Virus record (IMG/VR): IMGVR_UViG_3300012039_000023
Location: 1-29,666 of that record
Reading direction: 5' to 3' (one strand)
Length of the DNA stretch: 29,666 nt
DNA from: a virus
Shown: in pieces, positions 1,378 through 28,323 of the stretch
Layout of the letters: each line of letters begins with the position of its first letter
Numbering within the stretch: position 1 is the first letter of the stretch
Made by a program: the position numbers and the translations under genes
The notes under the pieces: model-generated
The model's database searches: none
Told to the model about the DNA's origin: nothing
What the model saw: the letters and a program-made list of their open reading frames with translations, nothing else

Positions 1378-2100
1378 ATGAAGATTATTATACCAGGAAA
1401 GCCAATACCAAAAGCCCGTGCACGATATTCTAAGCGTGGTAAGTTCGTTATCACATATGATCCTCAAGAGTCAGATAAGAAGCTTGTGCGTCAAATCATG
1501 ACGGCGCAACTTGCTGATTACTTTCAACTTACGGACAAATCTACAACTGAAGCAATGCATAAAATCTGCATGACGAAAGTTTTTTCAGTGCAGTTTCTCT
1601 TTTTTCTTCCCATTAATTCAAGCGATAGTGTAGGAACCAGAAATAAGAAGCTTTGGGGCATCACAAGAGCCTCTACAAAGCCCGATTACGACAATCTAGA
1701 GAAGTTCTACCTCGATTGTGCAAACGGTATTTTGTGGGGTGATGACTCTACCATAGTGAAAGCCAAGGCAATGAAGCTTTATAGCGAAGAACCAAGGGTA
1801 GAACTAGTGTTACATGCTGTCCCAGACGTTAACGTAAGCAAGAATGTTGAGAGCGTAATCACTGCATTTTCACCCTCTGAGTTCAAGGAATTACAAGATT
1901 ATGCGCAGAAAATATCGAACATTACTCAGCCGTGTATGGAACGAATTGAAGATAGTGTTCTTCAAGATTGGATCGTTTCAACCGCCGCTTTGCTGAACGA
2001 ATTCGCTATAAAGTACGCACCAAAATTAACCAAGATATCAAAACTAGGAGACATCAAGAGTGAAGTCAAAAATCTGCAAGAATACAAACTCGCATTGTAA
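1378..2100 (+). CDS. RusA-like Holliday junction resolvase with C-terminal extension
   Basis: The first ~145 of 240 residues match the RusA family: GKPIPKARARYSKRGK at 7-22, YDPQ near 27-30, and the acidic block KPDYDNLEKF at 101-110 followed by GDDSTIV at 121-127. D103, D105 and K109 have the spacing of the RusA catalytic residues D70, D72 and K76, and D122/D123 is a plausible third aspartate. RusA dimers cut four-way DNA junctions, and phages use them to resolve branched DNA before packaging. Typical RusA proteins are near 120 residues. The extra ~95 C-terminal residues have no family I recognise. The Shine-Dalgarno is weak (CGGG shortly before the ATG). Confidence 0.85.
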   Translation: MKIIIPGKPIPKARARYSKRGKFVITYDPQESDKKLVRQIMTAQLADYFQLTDKSTTEAMHKICMTKVFSVQFLFFLPINSSDSVGTRNKKLWGITRASTKPDYDNLEKFYLDCANGILWGDDSTIVKAKAMKLYSEEPRVELVLHAVPDVNVSKNVESVITAFSPSEFKELQDYAQKISNITQPCMERIEDSVLQDWIVSTAALLNEFAIKYAPKLTKISKLGDIKSEVKNLQEYKLAL

Positions 2101-2107
2101 GGCTAAA

Positions 2108-2320
2108 GTGCCAGATGTTAGAAAAGCTAACAAAGAAGGTAAGCAAGAATTGGTGAAAACAACCCCAGAACCAAAAGTTGTTAAGGTTGAAAGCGAACAT
2201 GCAAATACACCATATCTGCTAAAAAGTGCTCCAAAGCCTACTACTGAAGTGAAGAAACCAGAAGTACAAGAGAAAAAGAAATGCTTCTTGCAGAAATTAT
2301 GCGCATGGATAGGGGTATAA
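2108..2320 (+). CDS. Small lysine-rich hypothetical protein
   Basis: The open frame extends upstream to an ATG at 2060 inside the RusA gene, but a GTG at 2108 lies just after the RusA stop with AAGG five bases before it, so I prefer that start (70 residues). The protein is rich in lysine, glutamate and proline and probably disordered (KTTPEPK, KPTTEVKKPEVQEKKK). It ends in a short cysteine-containing hydrophobic stretch, CFLQKLCAWIGV, which could be a membrane-active helix. Its stop is two bases before the lipoprotein start. Function unknown. Confidence 0.5.
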   Translation: MPDVRKANKEGKQELVKTTPEPKVVKVESEHANTPYLLKSAPKPTTEVKKPEVQEKKKCFLQKLCAWIGV

Positions 2321-2322
2321 CT

Positions 2323-2520
2323 ATGGCTAAAGCTTTATGTCTTATTGCAGGAACCATGCTATTCATAGGAATGACGTTCTTGTTAGTCGTAGTTGTTTCG
2401 GGCTGCACCTATAGCATAAACAACGTGCAGACAGAGGGAAAGGCTAGTGATGTAGTGGATGAGACCGATAACGTTGAACCTAACATTTCGCCAAACATAG
2501 AACTTCCTTTAAACATTTGA
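2323..2520 (+). CDS. Small phage-encoded lipoprotein (possible outer-membrane spanin or exclusion factor)
   Basis: The ATG at 2323 has AGGGG eight bases upstream and gives 65 residues. An in-frame ATG at 2281 is further upstream but lies within the previous gene. Residues 1-28 are a signal sequence with a hydrophobic core (FIGMTFLLVVVV) ending in a lipobox, VSGC, so the mature protein should begin with a lipidated cysteine. The remaining ~37 residues are acidic and Asn/Pro-rich. Small phage lipoproteins act as outer-membrane spanin subunits in lysis or as superinfection-exclusion proteins. The sequence does not decide between these, and no adjacent inner-membrane spanin is evident. Confidence 0.65.
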   Translation: MAKALCLIAGTMLFIGMTFLLVVVVSGCTYSINNVQTEGKASDVVDETDNVEPNISPNIELPLNI

Positions 2521-2526
2521 GGTATT

Positions 2527-2688
2527 ATGAAGAAAACTAAAGAAGCTAAGAAGATCAAGAAAGTTATGCATGAATACAAAGAAGGTGAGCTACACTCAGG
2601 ATCTAAGAAAGGCCCTATCGTGAAGAATCCTAAGCAAGCAGTAGCAATTGCAATGTCCGAAGCTAAAAAGATGAAGAAGAAAAAATGA
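2527..2688 (+). CDS. DUF6496-like small basic protein
   Basis: This 53-residue lysine-rich protein contains VMHEYKEGELHSGSKKG, then KNPKQAVAIAMSEAKK. That arrangement matches the DUF6496 family (pattern VMHEFKEG-LKSG, then QAIAIALSEARK), which recurs in phages and bacteria without a known function. The high charge suggests nucleic-acid binding, but that is inference. Its TGA overlaps the ATG of the next gene (ATGA). Confidence 0.7.
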   Translation: MKKTKEAKKIKKVMHEYKEGELHSGSKKGPIVKNPKQAVAIAMSEAKKMKKKK

Positions 2689-2930
2689 TCTACGAAGCAA
2701 GTGCAACATTTGATAACGGACACACACTAGTATTTGAGCTAGAAGAGTATCAAGTTGAGGATTTTGTATTTGCAGTATATAGTAAAACAATTTATAAAGA
2801 CGAAAAGACGGGGGTTTTGTCCTGGCTGCCACCAGACAAACTCCTCCACTTAATCGTAAAACCTAATTTGGAGAGCCCCAAATGCCCAAAAAGCCACCTG
2901 TCGGATCAGGTAAACGATTTGCTAGCCTGA
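2685..2930 (+). CDS. Hypothetical protein
   Basis: This 81-residue protein starts in an ATGA overlap with the DUF6496-like gene. Its N-terminal half alternates hydrophobic and polar residues (ATFDNGHTLVFELEEYQVEDFVFAVYS), suggesting a small beta sheet. No family was recognised. Its last 49 bases overlap the next small gene in a different frame, so its C-terminus may be under dual coding constraint. Confidence 0.5.
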   Translation: MIYEASATFDNGHTLVFELEEYQVEDFVFAVYSKTIYKDEKTGVLSWLPPDKLLHLIVKPNLESPKCPKSHLSDQVNDLLA

Positions 2931-3058
2931 CCAAATCCATCGCTAAGAACTCAGACATTAAGAATCCTGCCGCTGTAGCTGCATCCATAGGACGTAAGAA
3001 ATATGGTGAAGCGAAAATGGCTAAGCTTTCTGCTGCTGCTAAGAAAAGGAAGAAATAA
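2882..3058 (+). CDS. Small basic phage protein (GSGKRF / IGRKKYG type)
   Basis: This 58-residue protein begins MPKKPPVGSGKRFASL and continues NPAAVAASIGRKKYGEAK before a lysine tail (AAAKKRKK). From memory, proteins with GSGKRFA and PAA-AA-IGRKKYG recur in phage genomes without a known role. It starts inside the previous gene, with GAGAGCCCC upstream giving a usable GAG ribosome-binding site. It ends in a TAATG overlap with the next gene. DNA binding is plausible from charge alone. Confidence 0.6.
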   Translation: MPKKPPVGSGKRFASLTKSIAKNSDIKNPAAVAASIGRKKYGEAKMAKLSAAAKKRKK

Positions 3059-3252
3059 TGTTTGAATTTAGGCAACCGAGCATGTCAGAAGATTTAGATA
3101 CAATGTTAAGTAGGTTAAAGGTAGTAGATGATATTATATCATATAACTTTACCTTTAATTTACCAGTTAAGTACCAGGTATGGCTAAACGCACATAAAGA
3201 TATGATTGAAGAACTTGAATACATGATCAACGAAGATTTGAGCAAGATATGA
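3058..3252 (+). CDS. Hypothetical helical protein
   Basis: This 64-residue protein starts in a TAATG overlap and ends overlapping the methyltransferase start by four bases. It is acidic at both ends and mostly helical, with heptad-like spacing (LDTMLSRLKVVDDII, then MIEELEYMINEDL). No family recognised. Tight coupling on both sides supports a real translated gene. Confidence 0.5.
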   Translation: MFEFRQPSMSEDLDTMLSRLKVVDDIISYNFTFNLPVKYQVWLNAHKDMIEELEYMINEDLSKI

Positions 3253-4463
3253 GAAACTGGCGAATAGAAAGTAGAAATGTGTCTGATTTAATTTCTCATG
3301 CGAAAAATCCTCGCAAGTTAAGTAAGCATGATGCTTCGCACCTAAGAACAAGCATTTCTAAGTTTGGCCTGATTGACTTGCCAGTGATAACTAAGGATAA
3401 CAGGGTTATAGGTGGCCATCAGCGTCTGAATGTCCTCAAGGAAATGAAGGTTCCAACAGTCAATTGTTGGGTTCCAGAATTCGATGATCTAACACCTCAA
3501 GACATCGATGAATTGAACATTAGGTTAAACAAGAATCAAGGTGAGTGGGACTGGGATGTTCTTGCTAACGAGTGGGACATAAATAATCTCTTAGAGTGGG
3601 GATTTACAGAGCAAGATTTGAATGCGGACATTGATGTCATCAATAGCAAAGATGAAAAAGACAATGAAACACTAGAACCAACTAAAGACCCTAAGACAAA
3701 ACTTGGCGATATTTACGAACTTGGTAACCATAGATTGGTATGCGGCGACTCAACGATGCCTGATGATGTGGAGAAGCTTCTTAATGGTTCAGAGCCAATT
3801 CTTATGGTTACTGATCCTCCTTATGGAGTCAATTATGATCCTAAATGGAGAACTAATGTAGGTATCGGAAAAGGAAAAAGAACCTGTGGCGAAGTACAAA
3901 ACGATGATAAAGTGAACTGGGCACTAGCTTGGAGTCTATTTCCTGGTTCGGTTGCGTATGTATGGCATGCAGGAAAATATTGCTCAGAAGTACAAAAGAG
4001 TCTTGAAGAAGCAGAGTTCGAAATTAAAAGCCAAATAATCTGGATTAAACAACACTTTGCTTTATCGAGAGGTGACTATCATTGGCAACATGAACCATGT
4101 TGGTATGCTGTTAGAAAAGGGCATCCGCATAATTGGCAAGGATCCAGAAAAGAATGCACAACATGGGAAATATCTAACCTAAACGCATTTGGTAAGTCAA
4201 GCGAAGATGAACGAACATCTCACTCAACACAAAAACCTTTAGAATGTATGTCCATTCCAGTGCGCAACAACACCAAAGAAGGTGAAGGAGTTTACGATCC
4301 TTTCCTGGGTTCAGGTACTACTCTTATGGCATGCGAAAATCTGAACCGAAAGTGTTTTGGAATGGAACTCGATCCTGCATATTGTGATCTCATCGTAGAA
4401 AGATGGCAAAGGAAGACTGGAAAGAAAATAATTAAGAATGGTTTGGAGCAAGATTCACTATGA
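3249..4463 (+). CDS. ParB-domain / DNA methyltransferase fusion
   Basis: This 404-residue protein joins two domains. Residues ~1-95 are a ParB/sulfiredoxin-like domain, with AKNPRKLSKHD, FGLIDLPVITKDNRVIGGHQRL (36-60) and LNIRLNKN. The rest is an amino-methyltransferase: motif IV DPPY at 189-192 and the S-adenosylmethionine loop FLGSGTT at 352-358, followed by CFGMELDPAYC. Motif IV before motif I is the beta-class order, which methylates adenine N6 or cytosine N4. No restriction endonuclease is adjacent, so it is probably an orphan phage methylase that protects phage DNA or marks sites. The ParB-like part may add DNA binding or nuclease activity. Confidence 0.88.
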   Translation: MRNWRIESRNVSDLISHAKNPRKLSKHDASHLRTSISKFGLIDLPVITKDNRVIGGHQRLNVLKEMKVPTVNCWVPEFDDLTPQDIDELNIRLNKNQGEWDWDVLANEWDINNLLEWGFTEQDLNADIDVINSKDEKDNETLEPTKDPKTKLGDIYELGNHRLVCGDSTMPDDVEKLLNGSEPILMVTDPPYGVNYDPKWRTNVGIGKGKRTCGEVQNDDKVNWALAWSLFPGSVAYVWHAGKYCSEVQKSLEEAEFEIKSQIIWIKQHFALSRGDYHWQHEPCWYAVRKGHPHNWQGSRKECTTWEISNLNAFGKSSEDERTSHSTQKPLECMSIPVRNNTKEGEGVYDPFLGSGTTLMACENLNRKCFGMELDPAYCDLIVERWQRKTGKKIIKNGLEQDSL

Positions 4464-5420: not shown

Positions 5421-6609
5421 TTTCTGGGAAGGCCCTGTTCGCTCTGGTAAGTCTTACTCATGCTTTTGGAGATGGATAGACTTCATACAGAATGGGCCGC
5501 CAGGGCCGCTGATTATGTGCGGTAGGACAGAGCCGACTATTAAGAGAAACATCATAAGGCCGCTACAAGACCTTATCGGTGATGATCTGCAATATATGTC
5601 GGGTAAAGGTGAAGTAAAGCTTTGGGGAAGGACTATAGACGTTGTAGGTGCTAATGACGAGAGAGCAGAGGCGAAAATACGAGGTTCCGAATATGTCGGA
5701 GCACTCCTTGATGAAGTTACTATTATTCCCGAAAACTTCGTCAAGATGTTATTTTCGCGCTTGTCTGTTCCTGGAGCGAAACTATTCGGCTCTACTAACC
5801 CTGACAGCCCATTTCATTGGTTGAAAGTAGATTACCTTGATAAAGCGGGCGAAATGGATGTAAAGGTATTTTCATTTGCTCTAGATGACAACCCGGCTTT
5901 AGATGAAGATTACAAGAAGAACTTAAAAAAAGAATACTCAGGACTTTGGTATCAACGATACATAGAGGGAAGGTGGGTACTAGCAGAAGGTGCAGTCTAT
6001 GACTTTTTCGATGAAGCGATTCACACTATACCTTACCCTCCCTCTCCAGCTACTTATTATATCCTTGGTGTGGATTACGGTACTTCCAATCCTTGCGTAT
6101 TCACTCTTATTGGCTATAACTCGGGAAGTTACCCTAATATGTGGCTGGAAAAAGAGTATTACTATGACTCAAAAGCTAAAAACAGACAAAAGTCAGACAG
6201 CGAATATGCCTTAGATCTGATTGAATTTCTCAGAGGATACCAAGTGAAAGCGATATATATTGACCCATCAGCGCTTTCATTCAAGGTGGAATTAAGGAAA
6301 CAGGGTTTAAGCAATCTTTTAGATGCAGACAATGATGTTTTAACTGGTATTAGGTTTACTTCTCAACTCATATCTAATGGCACTTTTAAGGTCTGCAAGC
6401 AATGTACAAACGCCATAAAAGAGTTTAGCACCTACGTATGGGATGAGAAAGCAAGTAGACGTGGAATTGATCAACCATTAAAGCAAAATGACCACGTAAT
6501 GGATTCCATAAGGTACGCTTTATATACACACTTTTTTAACAAGAGTCAATCAAGAATGACAGAAGCAGACTGTCAAGCAATGGAAAGAGCATATGCAAAG
6601 AAATTTTAG
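5350..6609 (+). CDS. terL: Terminase large subunit (packaging ATPase/nuclease)
   Basis: This is the packaging motor, which cuts the concatemer and pumps DNA through the portal. Motifs are Walker A GPVRSGKS (about residues 28-35), Walker B YVGALLDE (about 115-122) and the coupling motif GSTNPDSPF. The RNase-H-like nuclease follows with ILGVDYGTSNPC, then IYIDPSA, then NDHVMDSIRYAL, which supply acidic metal ligands. The frame extends to ATG 5302, but that codon has no ribosome-binding site. A TTG at 5350 has GGAGAG six bases upstream and gives a protein starting shortly before LLSPIQKRSL, like many relatives, so I chose TTG (419 residues). It overlaps the small subunit gene by 71 bases. Confidence 0.93.
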   Translation: MTTKKDLLSPIQKRSLIESTARLNFWEGPVRSGKSYSCFWRWIDFIQNGPPGPLIMCGRTEPTIKRNIIRPLQDLIGDDLQYMSGKGEVKLWGRTIDVVGANDERAEAKIRGSEYVGALLDEVTIIPENFVKMLFSRLSVPGAKLFGSTNPDSPFHWLKVDYLDKAGEMDVKVFSFALDDNPALDEDYKKNLKKEYSGLWYQRYIEGRWVLAEGAVYDFFDEAIHTIPYPPSPATYYILGVDYGTSNPCVFTLIGYNSGSYPNMWLEKEYYYDSKAKNRQKSDSEYALDLIEFLRGYQVKAIYIDPSALSFKVELRKQGLSNLLDADNDVLTGIRFTSQLISNGTFKVCKQCTNAIKEFSTYVWDEKASRRGIDQPLKQNDHVMDSIRYALYTHFFNKSQSRMTEADCQAMERAYAKKF

Positions 6610-6802
6610 CGCAGATATCTATATAAAAGTTTCAAATGAAACAAAAAATGTAGTGTCTATTATTCCTTTTTCTGATAGTGATAAGCGTATAGCTAAAACT
6701 CTTGAAAAAGTCCTAAATCAAAGCCTTATGCATGATAACGATATTGGTATGGATTTAGAAAGAGAAGACAGTTTTCGAAGACTGACAAGTGAAATTAGAT
6801 AG
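6593..6802 (+). CDS. Hypothetical protein
   Basis: This 69-residue frame begins 17 bases before the large terminase stop, with GGAAAGAG just upstream. It opens with a strand-rich segment (FSADIYIKVSNETKNVVSIIPF) and then becomes charged and helical (DKRIAKTLEKVLNQSL). No family recognised. It is the last gene before the structured gap that precedes the portal gene. Confidence 0.45.
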   Translation: MQRNFSADIYIKVSNETKNVVSIIPFSDSDKRIAKTLEKVLNQSLMHDNDIGMDLEREDSFRRLTSEIR

Positions 6803-6814
6803 ATAAATATTTTT

Positions 6815-6887
6815 AGCGAGCGGCCTGATCAGCCTTGGGGTACCTAACTACCCCACTCGCTCCTTCGTTAGGGAAGAGTATATACTC
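6815..6887 (+). other. Structured intergenic element: three-way-junction fold plus palindrome
   Basis: The 102-base gap before the portal gene is dense in complementarity. AGCGAG (6815-6820) pairs with CTCGCT (6856-6861). Inside it are two hairpins: GGC/GCC (6822-6824 with 6832-6834), and GGGGT/ACCCC (6837-6841 with 6850-6854). Together they make a compact three-way junction. A perfect 12-base palindrome, GAGTATATACTC, follows at 6876-6887, before the AGGGG site of the portal gene. It could be an RNA control element, a transcription processing site or part of a packaging signal. There is no U-run, so it is not a standard terminator. Confidence 0.5.
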
Positions 6888-6904
6888 ACGTAACAGGGGC
6901 GTTT

Positions 6905-8938
6905 ATGAGGCTGACAGGCCAGGAAATTGTAAGTGCTTGGGATGATGCGTATGACAAGAATTGGTACGCATGGAATGGATTAATCCCAGCATGTGAAACT
7001 GACATGGAAATGTTCCTTGGTAATCAATGGCAAGATAATGAAAAGCGTGCCTTGATGCAAGAGGGAAGAAATCCAAGAGTCTATAACTTCATCCGCCCTA
7101 AAATAAACATGGTATCTGGATACCAGAAGAAATACCGCCAATCATCCGTTGTAGTTCCTACAGAAGCTCAAGACCAAAAAGTATCAGACCAACTTACTAA
7201 AATGCTTATGTATGTAATGCAATTTGGTGATGGTTATGAGTGCATTTCTGATTGTTTCCGTGGATCGCTAATTACTGGATGGAATCTTTTAAGCCTATGG
7301 AAAGATTACAGAACAGATCCAGTCAATGGTGATATCAGATTTGGAAGAATACCATTCAATGGATTCCTATGCGATCCATACTTCTCAAAGCGAGATTTTA
7401 GCGATTGCGCAGATATTCAAAGAAGAAACTATATATCATTAGAGCAGGGAAAATCACTTCTACCAGAGTTCCGCAAGGAACTTGAATCACTCTATCGTAT
7501 AGGCTGGGAAAGAGACGATAAATTCAACTGGTTGCCTTACCAACAGCAGCCGAATGGCCAGCGTATGCTTGCTTATGATGAGTTTTGGGTGCAAGGTTGG
7601 GAAGAAAAGAAATATCTTTACAATGTGGCTACTGGTGATACCTTCAATTATGAAGGAAAAGACTCTGACTATTTCCTCTACGCAGATCCAAACATGGAAC
7701 TAATCGAACGTACAGAGCCCTACGTAGATCAACATATCATCGTCAATAATCAGCACATAACAACAGAAAGAAATCCATATGGCCTAAATGAATACCCTTT
7801 TATACCATTTTTCTGTGTTTTCGAACCGGAGTCACCGGATTATCTACTGAAAATTCAGTCTTTAGTAAGAACAATGATAGATCCGCAAAGGGATGCAAAC
7901 AGACGACGACTTCAGATGTCAGACATTGTAGAAAGCCAAATAAACTCAGGATGGTTAGCCGAAGAAGATTCTGTTGCGAACCCTCAAAGTCTTTATCAAA
8001 CATCTCAAGGAAAAGTCGTTTGGAAAAAGCCTGGTTTGCAACCTGGTGCTCTTGAAAGATTGCAAGCTGCACAAATACCCCCTTCCTTCTTCGACCTTAA
8101 CAATCTCCATGACAGTGATATTGGAATGGTAGCAAACATTTCAGATGAACTCCTTGGCCAAGCATCAAACGATCAAGACTCAGGTCTAAAGGTAATGCTT
8201 CGACAAGGAGCAGCATTAGTTGGCCTGCAAGATGTATTTGATAACTTACGTTTTGCTCAAGAAGTCACTTCGAAGAAAGTAATCAAAATGCTTTGCAGTT
8301 GGACACCAGAAAAGATGCAACGCATCATGAATGAAGAACCAGATGAAAGACTGAAAAGTATAGACGTATCTAAATATGATATTGCTGTGCAAGAGGGTGT
8401 GCTTACGAACTCTCAGCAACAACTCTTCTTCCGCCAAATGCTCGATATCAAAGCTATCGATCCAGATGCAGTGCCTCCTGGATTCCTTGCAAAAATCGCA
8501 CCACTACAAGGCAAAACAGAGTACTTGCAAGCAGTCGAAGAGTACAACAAGCAACAACAGCAACAGCAAGCAGAGCAAGCAAAAGTACAAAACCAACAAA
8601 TGGCTGTTCAAAGCGAACTTATCCAGTCTCAGTCTATAGCAAATATAGCTTCGGCGAAAGAGAGATTTACTCGTGCGGTCGCGAACATGGGTCTCGAAGA
8701 TGAACGCGCTTCAAAATCTGTTGATAATAGAGCCGACGCAACTCTTAAGCGTATGCAAGCAGCTGCACAGCTTGACTCTATGTCAGATGATAAGTTAATG
8801 AAATACCTAGATGTATTTCTCAAGTTAGAGCAGGTCAATGCAGCAGAAGAGCAAAAGCTTAAAGCTGATGACGTCTCTATATCGGCCGGAGTGGCCAACC
8901 AAAAACCAAAAGAGGTATCAAATGGACAAGAAATATAA
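6905..8938 (+). CDS. Portal protein (P22-type)
   Basis: This 677-residue protein forms the dodecameric ring through which DNA enters and leaves the capsid. The N-terminal region resembles P22-type portals: FLGNQWQDNEKRALMQEGRN, then YNFIRPKINMVSGYQKKYRQ, then RIPFNGFLCDPYFSKRDFSD. The long C-terminal part is helical and Gln/Ala-rich (a KQQQQQQAEQ run near residue 550), fitting the barrel or tunnel region of large portals of this class. AGGGG lies seven bases before the ATG. It sits between terminase and scaffold/capsid genes, the normal order. Its end overlaps the next gene by 17 bases. Confidence 0.9.
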   Translation: MRLTGQEIVSAWDDAYDKNWYAWNGLIPACETDMEMFLGNQWQDNEKRALMQEGRNPRVYNFIRPKINMVSGYQKKYRQSSVVVPTEAQDQKVSDQLTKMLMYVMQFGDGYECISDCFRGSLITGWNLLSLWKDYRTDPVNGDIRFGRIPFNGFLCDPYFSKRDFSDCADIQRRNYISLEQGKSLLPEFRKELESLYRIGWERDDKFNWLPYQQQPNGQRMLAYDEFWVQGWEEKKYLYNVATGDTFNYEGKDSDYFLYADPNMELIERTEPYVDQHIIVNNQHITTERNPYGLNEYPFIPFFCVFEPESPDYLLKIQSLVRTMIDPQRDANRRRLQMSDIVESQINSGWLAEEDSVANPQSLYQTSQGKVVWKKPGLQPGALERLQAAQIPPSFFDLNNLHDSDIGMVANISDELLGQASNDQDSGLKVMLRQGAALVGLQDVFDNLRFAQEVTSKKVIKMLCSWTPEKMQRIMNEEPDERLKSIDVSKYDIAVQEGVLTNSQQQLFFRQMLDIKAIDPDAVPPGFLAKIAPLQGKTEYLQAVEEYNKQQQQQQAEQAKVQNQQMAVQSELIQSQSIANIASAKERFTRAVANMGLEDERASKSVDNRADATLKRMQAAAQLDSMSDDKLMKYLDVFLKLEQVNAAEEQKLKADDVSISAGVANQKPKEVSNGQEI

Positions 8939-10274: not shown

Positions 10275-10585
10275 ATGGCTATTACAAGCGTTACAGTATT
10301 GCCTCCAGCAGTACGTGATTATTATGATCGCCTTCTTTTGATGACAGCATACCCTACGCTCATTCACACAAAATTTGCGCAGAAAAGAATGCTACCTCGA
10401 AAGATGGGTGATACTGTCGTTATGAGACGATATAACCGTCTAGCAACCGTTCCAGTGCCTCTTGTTGATGGTATTACCCCTCCAGGTACCCAACTATCAG
10501 CAACAGACATCAAGGCTCGTGTTGATTTTTATGGTAACTTTGTGACTATCACAAATCAGGTAGAGCTAACAGTAGAAGACAGGGT
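10275..10585 (+). CDS. Major capsid protein, exon 1 of 3 (N4-gp56 family)
   Basis: The full gene is a join of 10275-10585, 11381-11942 and 12154-12225, which together encode 314 residues. The N-terminus matches N4-gp56-family capsid proteins: PPAVRDYYDRLLLMTAYP, FAQKRMLPRKMGDTVVMRRY, then FVTITNQVELTVEDRV. The family normally continues with a helix like VLNEAARLL, and here that is found only after removing 795 bases. The exon ends ...AGG GT at 10585, so the valine codon is split across the junction (GT + C). Unspliced reading runs on to a stop after LYKSPLIDLDLLEAA and would make a 123-residue fragment. AAAGGA precedes the start. The protein forms the icosahedral shell, so splicing is essential for virions. 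Confidence 0.9.
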
Positions 10586-10613
10586 TAACGTACAGGCCCT
10601 GTATAAATCGCCT

Positions 10614-11177
10614 TTAATTGACTTGGACCTCCTTGAGGCAGCTTAAGGAAGACAAGGGCGAAGACAAAGAGAAGTGATTGGTATAATTATGATTTTTAAA
10701 GCGAGAGTTAAGTTGAATCATTTGCTGACGAAAACCAGCTCTAAGTTCAAGAATATGTGGTGCCTGCTTAACAGGTCCGCAACTTCCTGTCCTAGAGAAT
10801 GTTTTGCGCATTTTCAACATAACTTCGGCTTGAGGTCTTTTTACTCTAAGATATGGAATAAGCATTTCTGTAATATCGGTAAGAAGATTTCCAGTCATAT
10901 GAATATCATAAGTAAAACAATTGCGGTCGTGCATTCTATTTACATTAAACTTAGTGATGCGTCCGCCAAATGTTTTAAGAATCCACTCCAAAACTTCTTT
11001 ACAGTTGTTAGAGATTTTCAAAATGCAATGGTAATTGGGATATCTATTACCAGTGCAATAGGATGTGTTGATGTGATGGCCAATGAAAAAACAGCCTTCT
11101 CCGTCAATAAATCCGGCCAAATAAGCAAGATCCAACGGTGTAACATTAGAAAGATCGTAGGGTTTAAGTTTAGGCAT
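10614..11177 (-). CDS. LAGLIDADG homing endonuclease, antisense within intron 1
   Basis: This 187-residue protein is encoded against the capsid gene. It has one LAGLIDADG motif at residues ~18-30 (AYLAGFIDGEGCF), then a strand-rich region (YHCILKISNNCKEVLEWIL, FGGRITKFN, FTYDIHMTGNLLTDITEMLI) and the family ending LIPYLRVKRPQAEVMLKM. Single-motif enzymes act as homodimers and make a staggered cut at an intronless target, which lets the intron spread. The ATG at 11177 has AAAGGA upstream on its strand. The last ~18 residues are translated from the antisense of the intron's 5' catalytic core, ending 28 bases inside the 5' splice site. Being antisense, it needs its own promoter, and its transcript would be complementary to capsid pre-mRNA. 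Confidence 0.88.
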   Translation of the reverse strand: MPKLKPYDLSNVTPLDLAYLAGFIDGEGCFFIGHHINTSYCTGNRYPNYHCILKISNNCKEVLEWILKTFGGRITKFNVNRMHDRNCFTYDIHMTGNLLTDITEMLIPYLRVKRPQAEVMLKMRKTFSRTGSCGPVKQAPHILELRAGFRQQMIQLNSRFKNHNYTNHFSLSSPLSSLSCLKEVQVN

Positions 11178-11182
11178 GAAAA

Positions 11183-11234
11183 TCCTTTCGTTAAAAACGC
11201 ATGTAGTTTAAACGAAAGAGACAATTTTTGTCAC
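11183..11234 (-). promoter_or_regulatory. Candidate promoter and ribosome-site-sequestering inverted repeat for the endonuclease gene
   Basis: On the minus strand, a -35-like GTGACA (11234-11229) and a -10-like TAAACT (11210-11205) are separated by 18 bases and point into the endonuclease gene. A perfect 8-base inverted repeat, CTTTCGTT (11185-11192) with AACGAAAG (11211-11218), overlaps the AAAGGA ribosome-binding site. A transcript begun far upstream would include both arms and hide the site. One begun at this promoter would lack one arm. This logic resembles T4 I-TevI control but is inferred from sequence only. Confidence 0.4.
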
Positions 11235-11380
11235 GCTGAACGACTTAACAAGGCGACTTTTCATCAGGAAAAGATGCGAAAGTCTGAACTCTGTGGTAAC
11301 ACGGAGAGGAAGATCCGAAGAGGTTTTCCCGCTGTAGATATACAGTCAGTAGGCATGAGCATGCCGAAAGTAACAGAATG

Positions 11381-11942
11381 CTTAAACGAAGCTGCAAGGC
11401 TTCTTGCTCAGAACCTAGGTCAAACAATGGACGAAGTGACAAGAGATGTTCTCGCGTCAACAAGTTCAGTTCTACAATGTTCACATGGTGGTAATGGTAA
11501 CACACCTACACAGTTAACGTATGAAGATATTTGTGCAGCAGTAGGAACTCTTCTTGGTAATGATGCCGAGATGATTTCGGAAGTTGTTACAGCAGGCCCT
11601 AACTTCAGTACTACCGCAATTCGCCCAGCGTTTTGGGGTTTTATTGACACAGACCTTCTGTGCGACCTTGAAAATGTTGGCGATATGTTCGTTCCAACAG
11701 CCCAATATGCTAGCCAACAGACAGTGTTGGAAGCTGAGTGGGGAGCAACAGGCAACGTAAGGTGGCTTTATACTTCTGTGGGCAGCGTTTCAACCGCTAA
11801 CCCAGCAGTATACAACAACTTCATAGTTGGGAAAGAAGCCTATGGCGTTGTGCACTTAGGTGCAGAAACTGGAGACTTCTACATTAAGCCGTTAGGTAGT
11901 GCTGGATCAGCCGATCCACTCGATCAACGCGGAACAGTGGGT
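11381..11942 (+). CDS. Major capsid protein, exon 2 of 3
   Basis: The exon opens by completing the split valine codon and continues LNEAARLLAQNLGQTMDEVT RDVLA, the expected continuation of N4-gp56-type capsid proteins. It ends DPLDQRGTVG at 11942, on a codon boundary. It carries most of the shell fold, including FWGFIDTDLLCDLENVGDMF and a strand-rich region ending GDFYIKPLGSAG. Reading on without splicing reaches a stop after HYKFSLIDLELLEAA. A gene finder working without splicing would instead attach this exon to ~700 bases of intron and endonuclease antisense, giving a false 442-residue protein starting at 10674. Confidence 0.9.
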
Positions 11943-12153
11943 GAAATGTCAGCTCACTATAAATTTTCTCTGATTGACTTGGAACTCCTTGAGGCAGCTT
12001 AAGGAAGACAGGGGGCAAGCGAAAGCAGCCTGAACGACTAAGTGAGAAAACCCGAAAGGGAAGCGATAGTCTGAACTCTATGGTAACATAGAGAGGGATC
12101 TCCGAAGAGGGAACCCCGCCACGAAAGTGGTCATAAAAGTAACAGAAATAGTG
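11943..12153 (+). ncRNA. Group I intron 2 in the capsid gene (211 bases, no ORF)
   Basis: P1: exon GUGGGU (ending 11942) pairs with the guide GCUCAC at 11952-11957 with U.G at the splice site. P10: the P1-loop bases TGTCA (11947-11951) pair fully with the 3' exon TGGCA (12154-12158). P5-like: GC-GAAA-GC near 12019-12026. P7: GACTA (12036-12040) with TAGTC (12067-12071). P8: CCC-GAAA-GGG (12051-12060). P9: CTCTATG-GTAA-CATAGAG (12076-12093). A further hairpin, CCAC-GAAA-GTGG, is at 12119-12130. The last base is G (12153). It is small for the class and needs no intron protein. Its mobility may depend on the intron 1 endonuclease or have been lost. Confidence 0.9.
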
Positions 12154-12225
12154 TGGCAACATCCATTTGTAGCACGTATCTTAAACGATAGTTTTATGTT
12201 GAATTTAGAAGCAACAGCAGCATAA
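12154..12225 (+). CDS. Major capsid protein, exon 3 of 3
   Basis: The last 23 codons read WQHPFVARILNDSFMLNLEA plus TAA and a stop at 12223-12225. Joined to exon 2 this gives RGTVG-WQHPFVARILND, which matches the usual end of N4-gp56 capsid proteins (TVGWK-x-x-FAA-ILN). The exon is too short to stand as a gene and is easily missed. It is followed ten bases later by the next structural gene. Confidence 0.88.
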   Translation, partial: WQHPFVARILNDSFMLNLEATAA

Positions 12226-22065: not shown

Positions 22066-24348
22066 ATGGTAAAAAGCCCTTTAGCTTATATGGGTTCAGG
22101 CCCAGCAACTGACCAAAATGACGGCGTTGTCGAACTTGCTACAGTTGCAGAAACAGTTGCAGGAACTAATGCTACAAAAGCAGTCACACCGCTTGGTTTA
22201 GCCTCGGTAGCAATCGCAGGCGCTCCATCTGCAAGTACAGTACAAGCAGGTATTATTGAAATAGCTACAAACGCAGAAGCAGCTGCTCAAACTGATAATG
22301 ACAAAGCAATAGTTCCATCAAATTTGCCGTCAATTTTTGGAGCTACGGGTGCAATTGGTGGAACGACGCCAGCTGCTGGAACCTTTACAGATCTTACCGC
22401 AGATTCAACAGGCTCTATTAGCTTAGATGCTGATGCGGCCTCGCACTTCGCTGTATCTGGTGCTGGCATAGATCTTACTCTAGAAAGTTCAGGTGGACGA
22501 GTAGTTATAAACGGCGAAGAAGCTGCTGCTGATGCTGTCAGAGTGCTTTCTGCGGCAGGTGGACTAGATGTAGACGTAGCGCTCTTAATGAGCTTAGTTT
22601 CTTCTAGGAACAATGCCCAAGCTATTCTAATCAATGCCTCCGCTGGTGGTATCGACATAACTAACACAGGAACCGCTGGCGAAGATATTGATATCGCAAG
22701 CACTGGTGCATCGGTCAATATTTCGGCCACAGAAGCATCTGCGGACGCAATTACAATTGCTGCTTCAGCTGGTGGTATCGATATTACTGCTACTGGCGGC
22801 GATATGGACATTACAGCGTCTGGTGCAGGTCTTACGATTACATCAACTGAAAATGCAGCTGACTCGATTGCAATCATATCAACCGTTGGTGGTATTGACA
22901 TAACATGCTCCGCAGCCAGTGCTGGAGAGGATATTGATATCACAACAAGTTCATCAATTAACCTTACAGCTACCGAGAATGCAGCAAATGCAATCTATCT
23001 TAGAGCTAACGGTGGTACATCAGAAACAGTAAAAATCCACGCAGACCAAGGTACAGGCGTTGCTAGTATCGAAGTTGTTTCAGATGTAGGTGGAGTAACA
23101 ATTACAGGCGGCGTAGCCTCTGCTGATGCTATCAACATTGTAGCCTCAAATGCTGGAGGTGGTATCGATATCGATGCAGGTACTGCTGGATTCATCGTAG
23201 ATACTACCGGTGGAATCTCTCTTGACTCGGCCGCTGCCTCTAACTTCACAGCTACTGGTGCGTTCGACATTACTGTGCAATCAACAGCAGGAAGTATCTT
23301 AATAAATGCAGGTGAAGCCGCAGCAGATGCTGTTAACGTAGACTCCACAGGTGGTTTTGACCTTGACGCAGCATTGCAGATCAATATTGATTCGTCTCAA
23401 GCTGCTGCTGCTAACTCAGTCCGTATCGTAGCTTCAGCCGCAGATGGTGGTATGGATATTGATGCTGGAACAGGTGGTATAACAATTGACTCAACAGGTG
23501 CAGTTTCTATCGATGGAGCCGCAGCATCTAACTTTTCGGTTTCTGGAGCAGGTATAGACCTTACATTTGCAAGCACAGGTGGCCGAGTAGTCGTTAACGG
23601 CGAAGAAGCAGCCGCAGACGCGGTTAGGATCCTTTCCGCAGCTGGTGGACTAGATACAGACGTGGCACTACAGATGAGCCTTGTATCAAGCCAAAACGCT
23701 GCTGATGCAATCGTAATTAATGCGAGCGCTGGTGGTATAGATATTACAGCAGCAGGTGCAGCAGCTGAAGATCTAGACCTTGTGTGTACAGCGGGTTCTG
23801 TAAATATCACTGCAGGCGAAAGTGCTGCTGATTCAATGGTATTGACATCAAATGGCCTCGACATAGTAGTCGCAGGTGCAGCAGGTCGAGATATTGACGT
23901 TACGAACACAGGTGGATCCGTAAATATCACAGCTACAGAAAGCATTGCAAGCGCAATTGTAATTAATGCCTCTGGAGCAGCTGGTGGAGTATCAATTGAT
24001 GCTGGAACTAGCGGTTTAACAATCGGAACTGGTGTAACAAATGCAGTAACGACCGTAGCTACAGCAGCATCTCCGTACACTGTTCTAGGCACGGATTACT
24101 TTATTACTACCGACTCTACAGGTGGAATAATGACAATTACGTTGCCAGCAACACCTGCAACAGGACGCACAATCATTGTTTATGATGGTGTAGGACAAGC
24201 TGCCGGAAATAACGTCACTGTTGATGGAAACGGGGCTAACATTGCTGCCGGAGGTACATCAGCGGCAACTAAGGCTATAAATACTGCGTATGAGTCTTAC
24301 ATCTTGACATTTAATGGCACACTCTGGTGCGGACAAAATATCGTTTAA
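22066..24348 (+). CDS. Long beta-repeat fibre/appendage protein
   Basis: This 760-residue protein has three parts. Residues ~18-90 hold two fibre-type repeats (VVELATVAETVAGTNATKAV TPLGLA, then GIIEIATNAEAAAQTDNDKA), which trimerise and attach fibres. Residues ~113-660 are a long series of ~20-25-residue repeats built on SAGGIDITATG / DIDI-STGGSVNITATE, probably a stacked beta-solenoid shaft. Residues ~670-760 form a C-terminal domain (YTVLGTDYFITTDSTGG, then TITLPATPATGRTIIVYDG). The shaft contains a 110-residue duplication. Composition is Ala, Asp, Gly, Ile, Thr, with almost no cysteine. It probably extends from the virion to contact host or surroundings. Confidence 0.75.
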   Translation: MVKSPLAYMGSGPATDQNDGVVELATVAETVAGTNATKAVTPLGLASVAIAGAPSASTVQAGIIEIATNAEAAAQTDNDKAIVPSNLPSIFGATGAIGGTTPAAGTFTDLTADSTGSISLDADAASHFAVSGAGIDLTLESSGGRVVINGEEAAADAVRVLSAAGGLDVDVALLMSLVSSRNNAQAILINASAGGIDITNTGTAGEDIDIASTGASVNISATEASADAITIAASAGGIDITATGGDMDITASGAGLTITSTENAADSIAIISTVGGIDITCSAASAGEDIDITTSSSINLTATENAANAIYLRANGGTSETVKIHADQGTGVASIEVVSDVGGVTITGGVASADAINIVASNAGGGIDIDAGTAGFIVDTTGGISLDSAAASNFTATGAFDITVQSTAGSILINAGEAAADAVNVDSTGGFDLDAALQINIDSSQAAAANSVRIVASAADGGMDIDAGTGGITIDSTGAVSIDGAAASNFSVSGAGIDLTFASTGGRVVVNGEEAAADAVRILSAAGGLDTDVALQMSLVSSQNAADAIVINASAGGIDITAAGAAAEDLDLVCTAGSVNITAGESAADSMVLTSNGLDIVVAGAAGRDIDVTNTGGSVNITATESIASAIVINASGAAGGVSIDAGTSGLTIGTGVTNAVTTVATAASPYTVLGTDYFITTDSTGGIMTITLPATPATGRTIIVYDGVGQAAGNNVTVDGNGANIAAGGTSAATKAINTAYESYILTFNGTLWCGQNIV
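22402..22740 (+). repeat. Internal long duplication, copy 1
   Basis: Residues 113-225 of the fibre protein (from DSTGSISLDADAASHF through GRVVINGEEAAADAVRVLSA and SAGGIDIT) recur at residues 475-587 with about 75-80% similarity judged by eye. The offset is 362 residues (1086 bases). The DNA also matches over short blocks (for example GGCGAAGAAGC). Such duplications let a fibre shaft lengthen or shorten by recombination. Confidence 0.6.
23488..23826 (+). repeat. Internal long duplication, copy 2
   Basis: Second copy of the 113-residue block, here reading DSTGAVSIDGAAASNF, then GRVVVNGEEAAADAVRILSA, then QMSLVSSQNAADAIVINASA. Differences are mostly conservative replacements, which suggests an old duplication kept under the same structural constraint. 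Confidence 0.6.
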
Positions 24349-27289: not shown

Positions 27290-27632
27290 ATTCTGCCTCA
27301 TGTTTTTTAAATTCATCAACAATTATTTCTATAGCCTTTTTCATTTTTCTATAGATGTGTTCTTGACTCTGTTCAGAGATTTTATAATCTTGTGTCATAT
27401 CCACTTTTTCAAATATGACGCCATCACTAATCATTCCCAGCATATTAACTGATGTTATAAGAATTGAATACTGAACATTCAGGGGTATAAGAGCGGTAGG
27501 TATTTTTTCCATAACAAATTCAGTTAGTGTTGCTGAAGTACCTAGGAGAGTACAAATTAGCTCACATTTTTGTATATGATCAGGAAAATTCTTATCGATC
27601 TTGTCGTATAATTCCTGAATAGAATCAGACAT
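27279..27632 (-). CDS. Hypothetical protein downstream of the recombinase
   Basis: This 117-residue protein is helical with a hydrophobic middle (ALIPLNVQYSILITSVNMLG MISDGVIF) flanked by charged helices (EHIYRKMKKAIEIIVDEFKK). It overlaps the recombinase stop by eight bases. The hydrophobic segment is not long enough for a clear membrane span. No family recognised. Confidence 0.55.
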   Translation of the reverse strand: MSDSIQELYDKIDKNFPDHIQKCELICTLLGTSATLTEFVMEKIPTALIPLNVQYSILITSVNMLGMISDGVIFEKVDMTQDYKISEQSQEHIYRKMKKAIEIIVDEFKKHEAEYDI

Positions 27633-28323
27633 TCGCTGTATCCCTTTTAAGTCTTTCTACGCAAACTCTAAGTATACTAGAATGATTCCATTTACTACCA
27701 CCACGATTAAGTAAATTTCGATCATTTAAGCTCTTAGCTATGCCGCGTATAGAAATGCCTGAATTTCTGAGTTGAGTCATTTCTTGCAATAATGTTTTTT
27801 CAGAATGATTTTCAGATAGATGAATACCATTTTCACAGAGTTGAGAGCCAAAAGGTATATAACCAACACGTTCATTTTTCCTTTTCTTAGCCTGTAAAGC
27901 TGCACTTACACGCAGACCTATTATTAAACGCTCATATTCGCTAAATGCGTCGATCATTCTGCGCATAAGCATACCGGTAGGGTCATCGTTCTCTGTGCCC
28001 TCTCCGGCCAAGGAAATGATCTTAGCGCCCTTTCGCTTAACAGCGGCCTCGATCATTGCCATAACAAGAGCATCTCTACCAAGGCGATCGCGTTTTGCAA
28101 CAACTAGCAAGTCGCCTTTAGAGAGGGAATTAATGGCATTAAGCATGCCAGGCCTTTTCTCAAGTGATAGAGAGCCGCTTAATGCTTCATCCCTGAATAT
28201 CTCTTTCAGATCAGCTTTATTTTGTAGTGCATATTTCTCAATAGCAAAAGTTTGAGCATCTAGCCCGTGCTTAGATTCTGCTTGATATTCTGTGCTTACT
28301 CTTATATAGCCTATTATTTTCAT
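27625..28323 (-). CDS. Serine recombinase (resolvase/invertase family)
   Basis: This 232-residue protein has the resolvase catalytic domain: GYIRVSTEYQ with the nucleophile Ser10 and Arg8, then RDEALSG, the arginine-bearing KRDRLGRD (77-84), and the ending GMLMRRMIDAFSEYERLI. The C-terminal ~50 residues form an HTH-like region (LRNSGISIRGIAKSLNDRNL). Small serine recombinases cut both strands and rejoin them for resolution, inversion or integration. No recombination sites were found flanking the gene by eye, so integrase versus invertase is undecided. It starts in an overlap with the DUF551-like gene (ATGA). Confidence 0.9.
   Translation of the reverse strand: MKIIGYIRVSTEYQAESKHGLDAQTFAIEKYALQNKADLKEIFRDEALSGSLSLEKRPGMLNAINSLSKGDLLVVAKRDRLGRDALVMAMIEAAVKRKGAKIISLAGEGTENDDPTGMLMRRMIDAFSEYERLIIGLRVSAALQAKKRKNERVGYIPFGSQLCENGIHLSENHSEKTLLQEMTQLRNSGISIRGIAKSLNDRNLLNRGGSKWNHSSILRVCVERLKRDTANV

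Follow-up and report, generated by a model that had tools for sequence, protein, structure and literature searches.

Two putative group I introns of one family in a phage N4-gp56-type major capsid gene and a probable homing footprint around the first

Background

How can a phage make its capsid when the major capsid gene is cut into three pieces by two non-coding inserts, and how did the inserts come to be there? This question is raised by a linear metagenomic virus contig of 29,666 nt, the whole of which was analyzed and is called the window here; related loci are cited by L numbers. Group I introns in phages, their homing, and the accompanying co-conversion of exon sequence are familiar from the td, nrdB, and nrdD introns of T4 and the endonuclease I-TevI.

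Results

The interrupted capsid gene and its joined product

A preliminary description of the window, made from its sequence without database searches, held that two inserts break a capsid gene of the N4-gp56 type. Our analysis recovered the same coordinates, and the gene is divided into the following segments.

10275..10585, plus strand: capsid exon 1, codons 1-103 and two bases of codon 104 (TIGR04387, 78.4 bits; junction at the U.G of P1)
10586..11380, plus strand: intron 1, putative group I, 795 nt, in codon 104 (phase 2) (missing in L005 and L004; homologues at the site in L084-L089; family model R1, below)
11381..11942, plus strand: capsid exon 2, remainder of codon 104 to codon 291 (TIGR04387, 108 bits)
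11943..12153, plus strand: intron 2, putative group I, 211 nt, without an ORF, between codons 291 and 292 (phase 0) (R1; same site in relatives)
12154..12225, plus strand: capsid exon 3, 23 codons and the stop codon (intronless relatives read through)

Joining 10275-10585, 11381-11942, and 12154-12225 gives 945 nt in frame, encoding 314 amino acids followed by a stop codon. The joined product matched the NCBIfam model TIGR04387 (N4-gp56 family major capsid protein) with 218.4 bits (1.4e-64, model positions 3-322 of 324), reaching the curated cut-off of 60 bits over the full model and bearing out the expectation that the 314-residue protein would align with N4-gp56 capsids. The unjoined pieces scored 78.4 bits (exon 1) and 108 bits (exon 2), and the intronless relative L006 scored 227.4 bits. 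The joined protein also matched PHROG 1357 (major head protein, 1.2e-46) and PF25209. An AlphaFold model of an intronless capsid relative had a pLDDT of 35 and was unusable for a fold search.

The automatic ORFs over the gene were 10275-10646 (123 aa) and 10674-12002 (442 aa), so that the capsid is reported as broken, as had been anticipated. The 442-aa ORF is chimeric, spanning intron 1 and continuing into exon 2, and its frame is open through the intron probably because a gene on the opposite strand, described below, keeps it free of stops. The exon 1 reading frame meets stop codons just inside intron 1.

Splice junctions were located independently by searching for boundaries that keep the frame, with U before the intron and G at its end, and by scoring P1. 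This search gave the same bases as the preliminary description for both introns, with a U.G-containing P1 at both 5′ sites and an omega-G at both 3′ ends.

10579..10602, plus strand: intron 1 P1, exon 10579-10585 (ACAGGGT) with guide 10596-10602 (GCCCTGT), U.G at the 5′ splice site
11936..11958, plus strand: intron 2 P1, exon 11936-11942 (AGTGGGT) with guide 11952-11958 (GCTCACT), from the junction search
11947..12158, plus strand: intron 2 P10, 11947-11951 (TGTCA) with 3′ exon 12154-12158 (TGGCA), read from the sequence

The P10 of intron 2, which had been called perfect, is contiguous over 5 bp but includes one G.U and is not all Watson-Crick; that of intron 1 is 2 bp only. Equally clean junctions were obtained in other intron-bearing relatives; for L078 (codon 292) the second candidate was needed, the L090 junction was read by hand, and the automatic junctions of several P22-coat introns were unreliable and were left out.

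Group I identity of the inserts

The following core helices were assigned in the two introns.

10608..11256, plus strand: intron 1 P3, 10608-10614 with 11250-11256, seven standard pairs
11240..11285, plus strand: intron 1 P7, 11240-11246 with 11280-11285, the predicted guanosine-binding helix, with a bulged C
11964..12050, plus strand: intron 2 P3, 11964-11970 with 12044-12050 (covariation)
Plus strand: intron 2 P4, 11978-11981 with 12009-12012; P5, 11986-11989 with 12002-12005; P6, 12013-12016 with 12028-12031 (covariation)
12034..12072, plus strand: intron 2 P7, 12034-12040 with 12067-12072, pseudoknotted with P3 (covariation)
Plus strand: intron 2 P8, 12051-12053 with 12058-12060 (covariation)

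These include the P4-P6 and P3-P8 domains and a P7 pseudoknotted to P3, the arrangement by which group I introns are recognized. The 5′ and 3′ core segments of introns 1 and 2 are 84% identical, placing the two in one family, and their P3 helices read UUUUCUC/GAGAAAA and UCGCCUU/AAGGCGA, with all seven pairs maintained in both by several compensatory changes.

Covariation was counted over P3, P4, P5, P6, P7, P8, and one P9 helix. In alignment A1, comprising 45 introns gathered by a core motif with the window and its close relatives excluded, 96.5% of cells were paired, compared to 35-47% when partners were slid by 1-3 columns, and double-sided changes were present in 328 cells against 93 expected by shuffling. 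In alignment A2, comprising 16 introns (15 of N4-gp56 capsid genes and one of a P22-type coat gene), 97.1% of cells were paired, compared to 37-47% when slid, and all 7 P3 pairs had double-sided changes. A family covariance model, R1, built from A1 and so without the window, scored 189.7 bits (E 4.5e-41) on intron 2, and 83.3 bits and 27.9 bits on the 3′ and 5′ halves of intron 1. Introns 1 and 2 were the only real R1 matches across the window, the next having an E of 1.5.

The Rfam Intron_gpI model, to which the preliminary description had looked for confirmation, provided little of it. A scan of the whole 29,666-nt window gave no Intron_gpI match, intron 1 gave none, and intron 2 scanned alone gave 15.8 bits (E 0.066), short of the gathering score of 50, which is a database cut-off and not a biochemical definition of a group I intron. 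The experimentally proven intron of mycobacteriophage LittleE scores only 30.7 bits with the same model. The family member L146 scored 35.3 bits (E 2.5e-5) end to end, and the family belongs to group I on account of this match over the whole model. With R1 removing the doubt that Rfam had left, the combined evidence supports the assignment of both inserts to group I, as members of one small-intron family.

An antisense endonuclease gene and a foreign exon tract at intron 1

Intron 1 contains an antisense LAGLIDADG gene that the preliminary description did not notice, and it is flanked by an unusually divergent stretch of exon.

10614..11177, minus strand: gene for a 187-aa homing endonuclease of the LAGLIDADG type, within the loop of P6 in intron 1 (PF00961, PHROG 5046, I-MsoI)
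10559..10585, plus strand: candidate co-conversion tract, upstream arm
11381..11516, plus strand: candidate co-conversion tract, downstream arm

The 3′ end of the endonuclease gene overlaps the ribozyme core of intron 1 on the opposite strand. Its product matched PF00961 (LAGLIDADG_1) with 31 bits (4.9e-7), passing the cut-off of 23.1, and PHROG 5046 (2.5e-20); the best solved relative was I-MsoI (1.6e-9), a match of the I-MsoI/I-CreI type. A purine-rich leader precedes the start codon, AACGAAAGGA in this phage. Six relatives were found by the endonuclease sequence, and each is encoded antisense within a capsid-gene intron at this codon-104 position, the gene being present in all seven occupants of this phase-2 site. 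The gene is under purifying selection, with a dN/dS of 0.08-0.26 where measurable in the seven phages and changes biased to third positions. At 4-fold sites the endonuclease had diverged less than the capsid gene carrying it in the six pairs that include this phage; both the shortness of the genes and the lack of independence among pairs confound this comparison. A promoter scan for the antisense gene gave no convincing candidate, its result being at chance level. On the minus strand, 11175-11215 is predicted to form a leader hairpin over the ribosome-binding site (-10.2 kcal/mol, z -2.5), which is uneven in relatives and for which a role in translational control is possible.

Two relatives lack intron 1: L005, whose protein is 99.7% identical over residues 1-291 and whose gene has intron 2, and L004, whose contig ends inside intron 2. 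From -27 to +136 around intron 1, the exons differ from those of L005 at 36 of 163 positions (34 synonymous), against 14 differences in the remaining 710 compared capsid positions, a contrast whose P of 2e-17 is only descriptive since the bounds were chosen after the data were seen. L004 agrees with L005 within the tract. This indicates that a short foreign exon tract entered around intron 1; no donor of the tract was found. The tract is best read as the footprint of homing, as co-conversion predicts, and this pair of alleles with and without intron 1, together with the sharp tract, would make natural homing visible at base level.

It is conceivable, at fairly long odds, that both inserts self-splice while the endonuclease gene is a relic, intron 1 having been inherited vertically and not by homing. 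The seven occupied alleles could be old; the low dN/dS of the gene, the co-conversion tract on both sides of intron 1, and the near-identical allele without it all speak for homing instead.

Empty and occupied sites and selection on the exons

Among 80 capsid relatives in viral contigs, about 74 capsid genes have no interruption, and these empty sites, along with the TIGR04387 match of the joined product, uphold the view that two inserts break the gene. The intron 1 site is occupied by homologous introns in L084-L089, and the intron 2 site is occupied in L005, L070, L078, L184, and L208. The occupation of the same base in these independent metagenomes makes it very improbable that this is a capsid pseudogene, decayed or mis-assembled, whose inserts are not removed, as a frame interrupted by stop codons on a linear metagenomic contig might suggest. 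The insert cores are moreover conserved by compensatory changes, and purifying selection on the joined exons is strong (dN/dS about 0.03-0.1). Given this selection, and because two thirds of what is conserved in the protein is encoded beyond the introns, it may soundly be concluded that virion formation would require splicing.

Least probable of all, inteins, translational-bypass segments, or group II introns would suit the weak Rfam score and the exon 2 frame that is open through most of intron 1 (10674-12002), but they are at odds with the exon 1 frame that stops just inside intron 1, the covarying P3-P8/P4-P6/P7 core, the U.G and omega-G junctions, and the family member that matches Intron_gpI end to end (35.3 bits), the open frame being a shadow of the antisense gene.

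Related capsid genes showed further arrangements. In L085 (reverse strand, 3252-1804) the capsid gene has three introns, at codons 36, 88, and 104, the middle and last of which are set apart by a 50-nt exon only. The L081 insert (2074-3009, 936 nt, codon 36) gave no R1 match and was rejected as a family member; it encodes a sense-strand LAGLIDADG_2 protein.

Proposed splicing and homing of the introns

We favor, with a probability of about 0.93, the reading that two group I introns of the same family are spliced from the capsid mRNA and that intron 1 was spread by the homing of its antisense endonuclease. The boundaries, the capsid identity, the covarying structure, the selection, the empty and occupied alleles, and the co-conversion tract were established by computation. 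On the late transcript, each intron would fold into a ribozyme core with P3-P8 and P4-P6 domains, in which P7 would bind guanosine, the 5′ splice site would be aligned by P1, and the 3′ site would be marked by the terminal G. Two transesterifications would then give an uninterrupted mRNA for the 314-aa capsid protein, and we infer that both introns are spliced, and efficiently. Intron 2 would be a bare ribozyme. The endonuclease of intron 1 would need a separate minus-strand transcript for its expression and is presumably made from one; capsid alleles without intron 1 would be cut at codon 104, the likely target site of the enzyme, and repair of the break would copy intron 1 with the flanking exon DNA. 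The most abundant protein of this phage would thereby depend on RNA being spliced twice. Genes of this kind are broken by automatic annotation, which would miss the capsid here or call it as a chimeric ORF of 442 aa.

Host genes and spread of the intron family

Introns occupied about 21 different positions of the N4-gp56 capsid gene (approximate in distant relatives), with a weak tendency to lie at conserved codons (P 0.03). Searches with the core motif were not selected for capsids, and among the matches listed capsid genes hosted 47 of the 88 dereplicated viral clusters; the non-capsid hosts among these matches were mostly tape measure, ribonucleotide reductase, and portal genes or were unassigned. 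When an independent 3′ motif was used, capsid exons adjoined 81 of 88 introns, and 29 of 33 at newly fetched loci, in both cases among the matches listed. These capsid fractions are estimates, since they are counts among the matches listed and both motifs were derived from this intron family. The capsid lean was absent from genome_contigs, where capsid genes accounted for 2 of 27 with the core motif among the matches listed. On these estimates, capsid genes are mostly the usual home of this small-intron family and not the exception.

The core of intron 2 is 82% identical to that of a codon-79 intron in another phage, compared to at most 73% for same-site introns outside its own near-identical relatives. 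Cores from different sites are often closer than those from the same site across the family, which suggests movement of introns between sites; insertion by reverse splicing into late capsid mRNA, which is abundant, is a speculative route for it. As a tentative wider view, which we hold to be rather less than an even bet, these introns could be a widespread small group I lineage specialized on phage capsid genes that has entered about 21 N4-gp56 positions as well as P22-type coat genes and the capsid genes of PHROG 9953, 283, 4523, and 1328, that moves between sites, and that is spread at codon 104 by the antisense endonuclease. The capsid lean raises the question of why capsid genes accumulate introns and, second, whether new sites are reached through abundant mRNA.

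Several other loci are of note. In L163, a stretch of about 1.2 kb (5914-7064) at and near a capsid gene contains no fewer than three group I introns. Same-family introns were present in P22-type coat and PHROG 283 capsid genes (L095, L111, L115, L121, L180, L185, L187, and L193), often two or three in a row. Desulfovibrio phage SRB7757 (L091, 1424-1629) has a member of the family in a host gene that was not identified as a capsid gene, and this intron adjoins a small cysteine-containing ORF that may encode an endonuclease.

Other genes in the window

3249..4463: ParB-like domain fused to a DNA methyltransferase (PHROG 620 and 498)
22066..24348: 760-aa protein with degenerate repeats (GGIDI...)
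27625..28323, minus strand: serine recombinase (PF00239)

No Pfam family matched the 760-aa protein, and a tandem repeat was not detected in the DNA of 22066-24348. Given the serine recombinase gene, the phage may integrate.

Comparison with known systems

The preliminary description regarded two introns in one capsid gene as unusual, a view that is tempered by capsid genes being the usual home of this family and by precedents in LittleE and a crAss-like phage. In mycobacteriophage LittleE the major capsid gene is interrupted by a group I intron (about 820 nt) that carries a LAGLIDADG gene on the opposite strand; RT-PCR demonstrated that the intron is spliced, intronless relatives exist, and a related endonuclease-free intron is present in another gene (PMC3706429). 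An intron in the capsid gene of Tuc2009 is cited there as well (PMC3706429). The window resembles LittleE in having a group I intron in a phage major capsid gene, an antisense LAGLIDADG gene, and intronless relatives. It differs in that the LittleE gene has a single intron whose splicing was shown experimentally, and in that the LittleE endonuclease follows the core whereas that of the window sits in P6. As a candidate direct relative the LittleE intron was rejected, as it gave no R1 match and the endonucleases share the motif region only.

Several group I introns per major capsid gene, as in the window, are also found in the crAss-like Zeta-group capsid gene OLRF01000054, a likeness drawn from its published description; that gene, from larger gut phages, is in five fragments, with three of the four inserts encoding intron-type domains (PMC7886860). 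The genomes of Jug phages have about 18 small group I introns each, and 37 of the 76 that were checked have metatranscriptome read support (PMC12363816). Phage capsid genes with one intron or several are thus already known, and what is new, within the open-licence literature, is the capsid lean of one family. Neither a capsid preference of one intron family nor a natural co-conversion footprint in a capsid gene was found in the literature searched (open-licence papers only). The T4 introns differ from those of the window in their metabolic host genes and in their sense-strand GIY-YIG and HNH enzymes. In MW202674.1 (Podoviridae sp. ctn9Y15), the same intron family (R1, 177.1 bits) interrupts a capsid gene of the P22 coat type, whose two pieces are annotated as 'P22 coat protein'; it differs from the window in its capsid family and in having an intron without an endonuclease.
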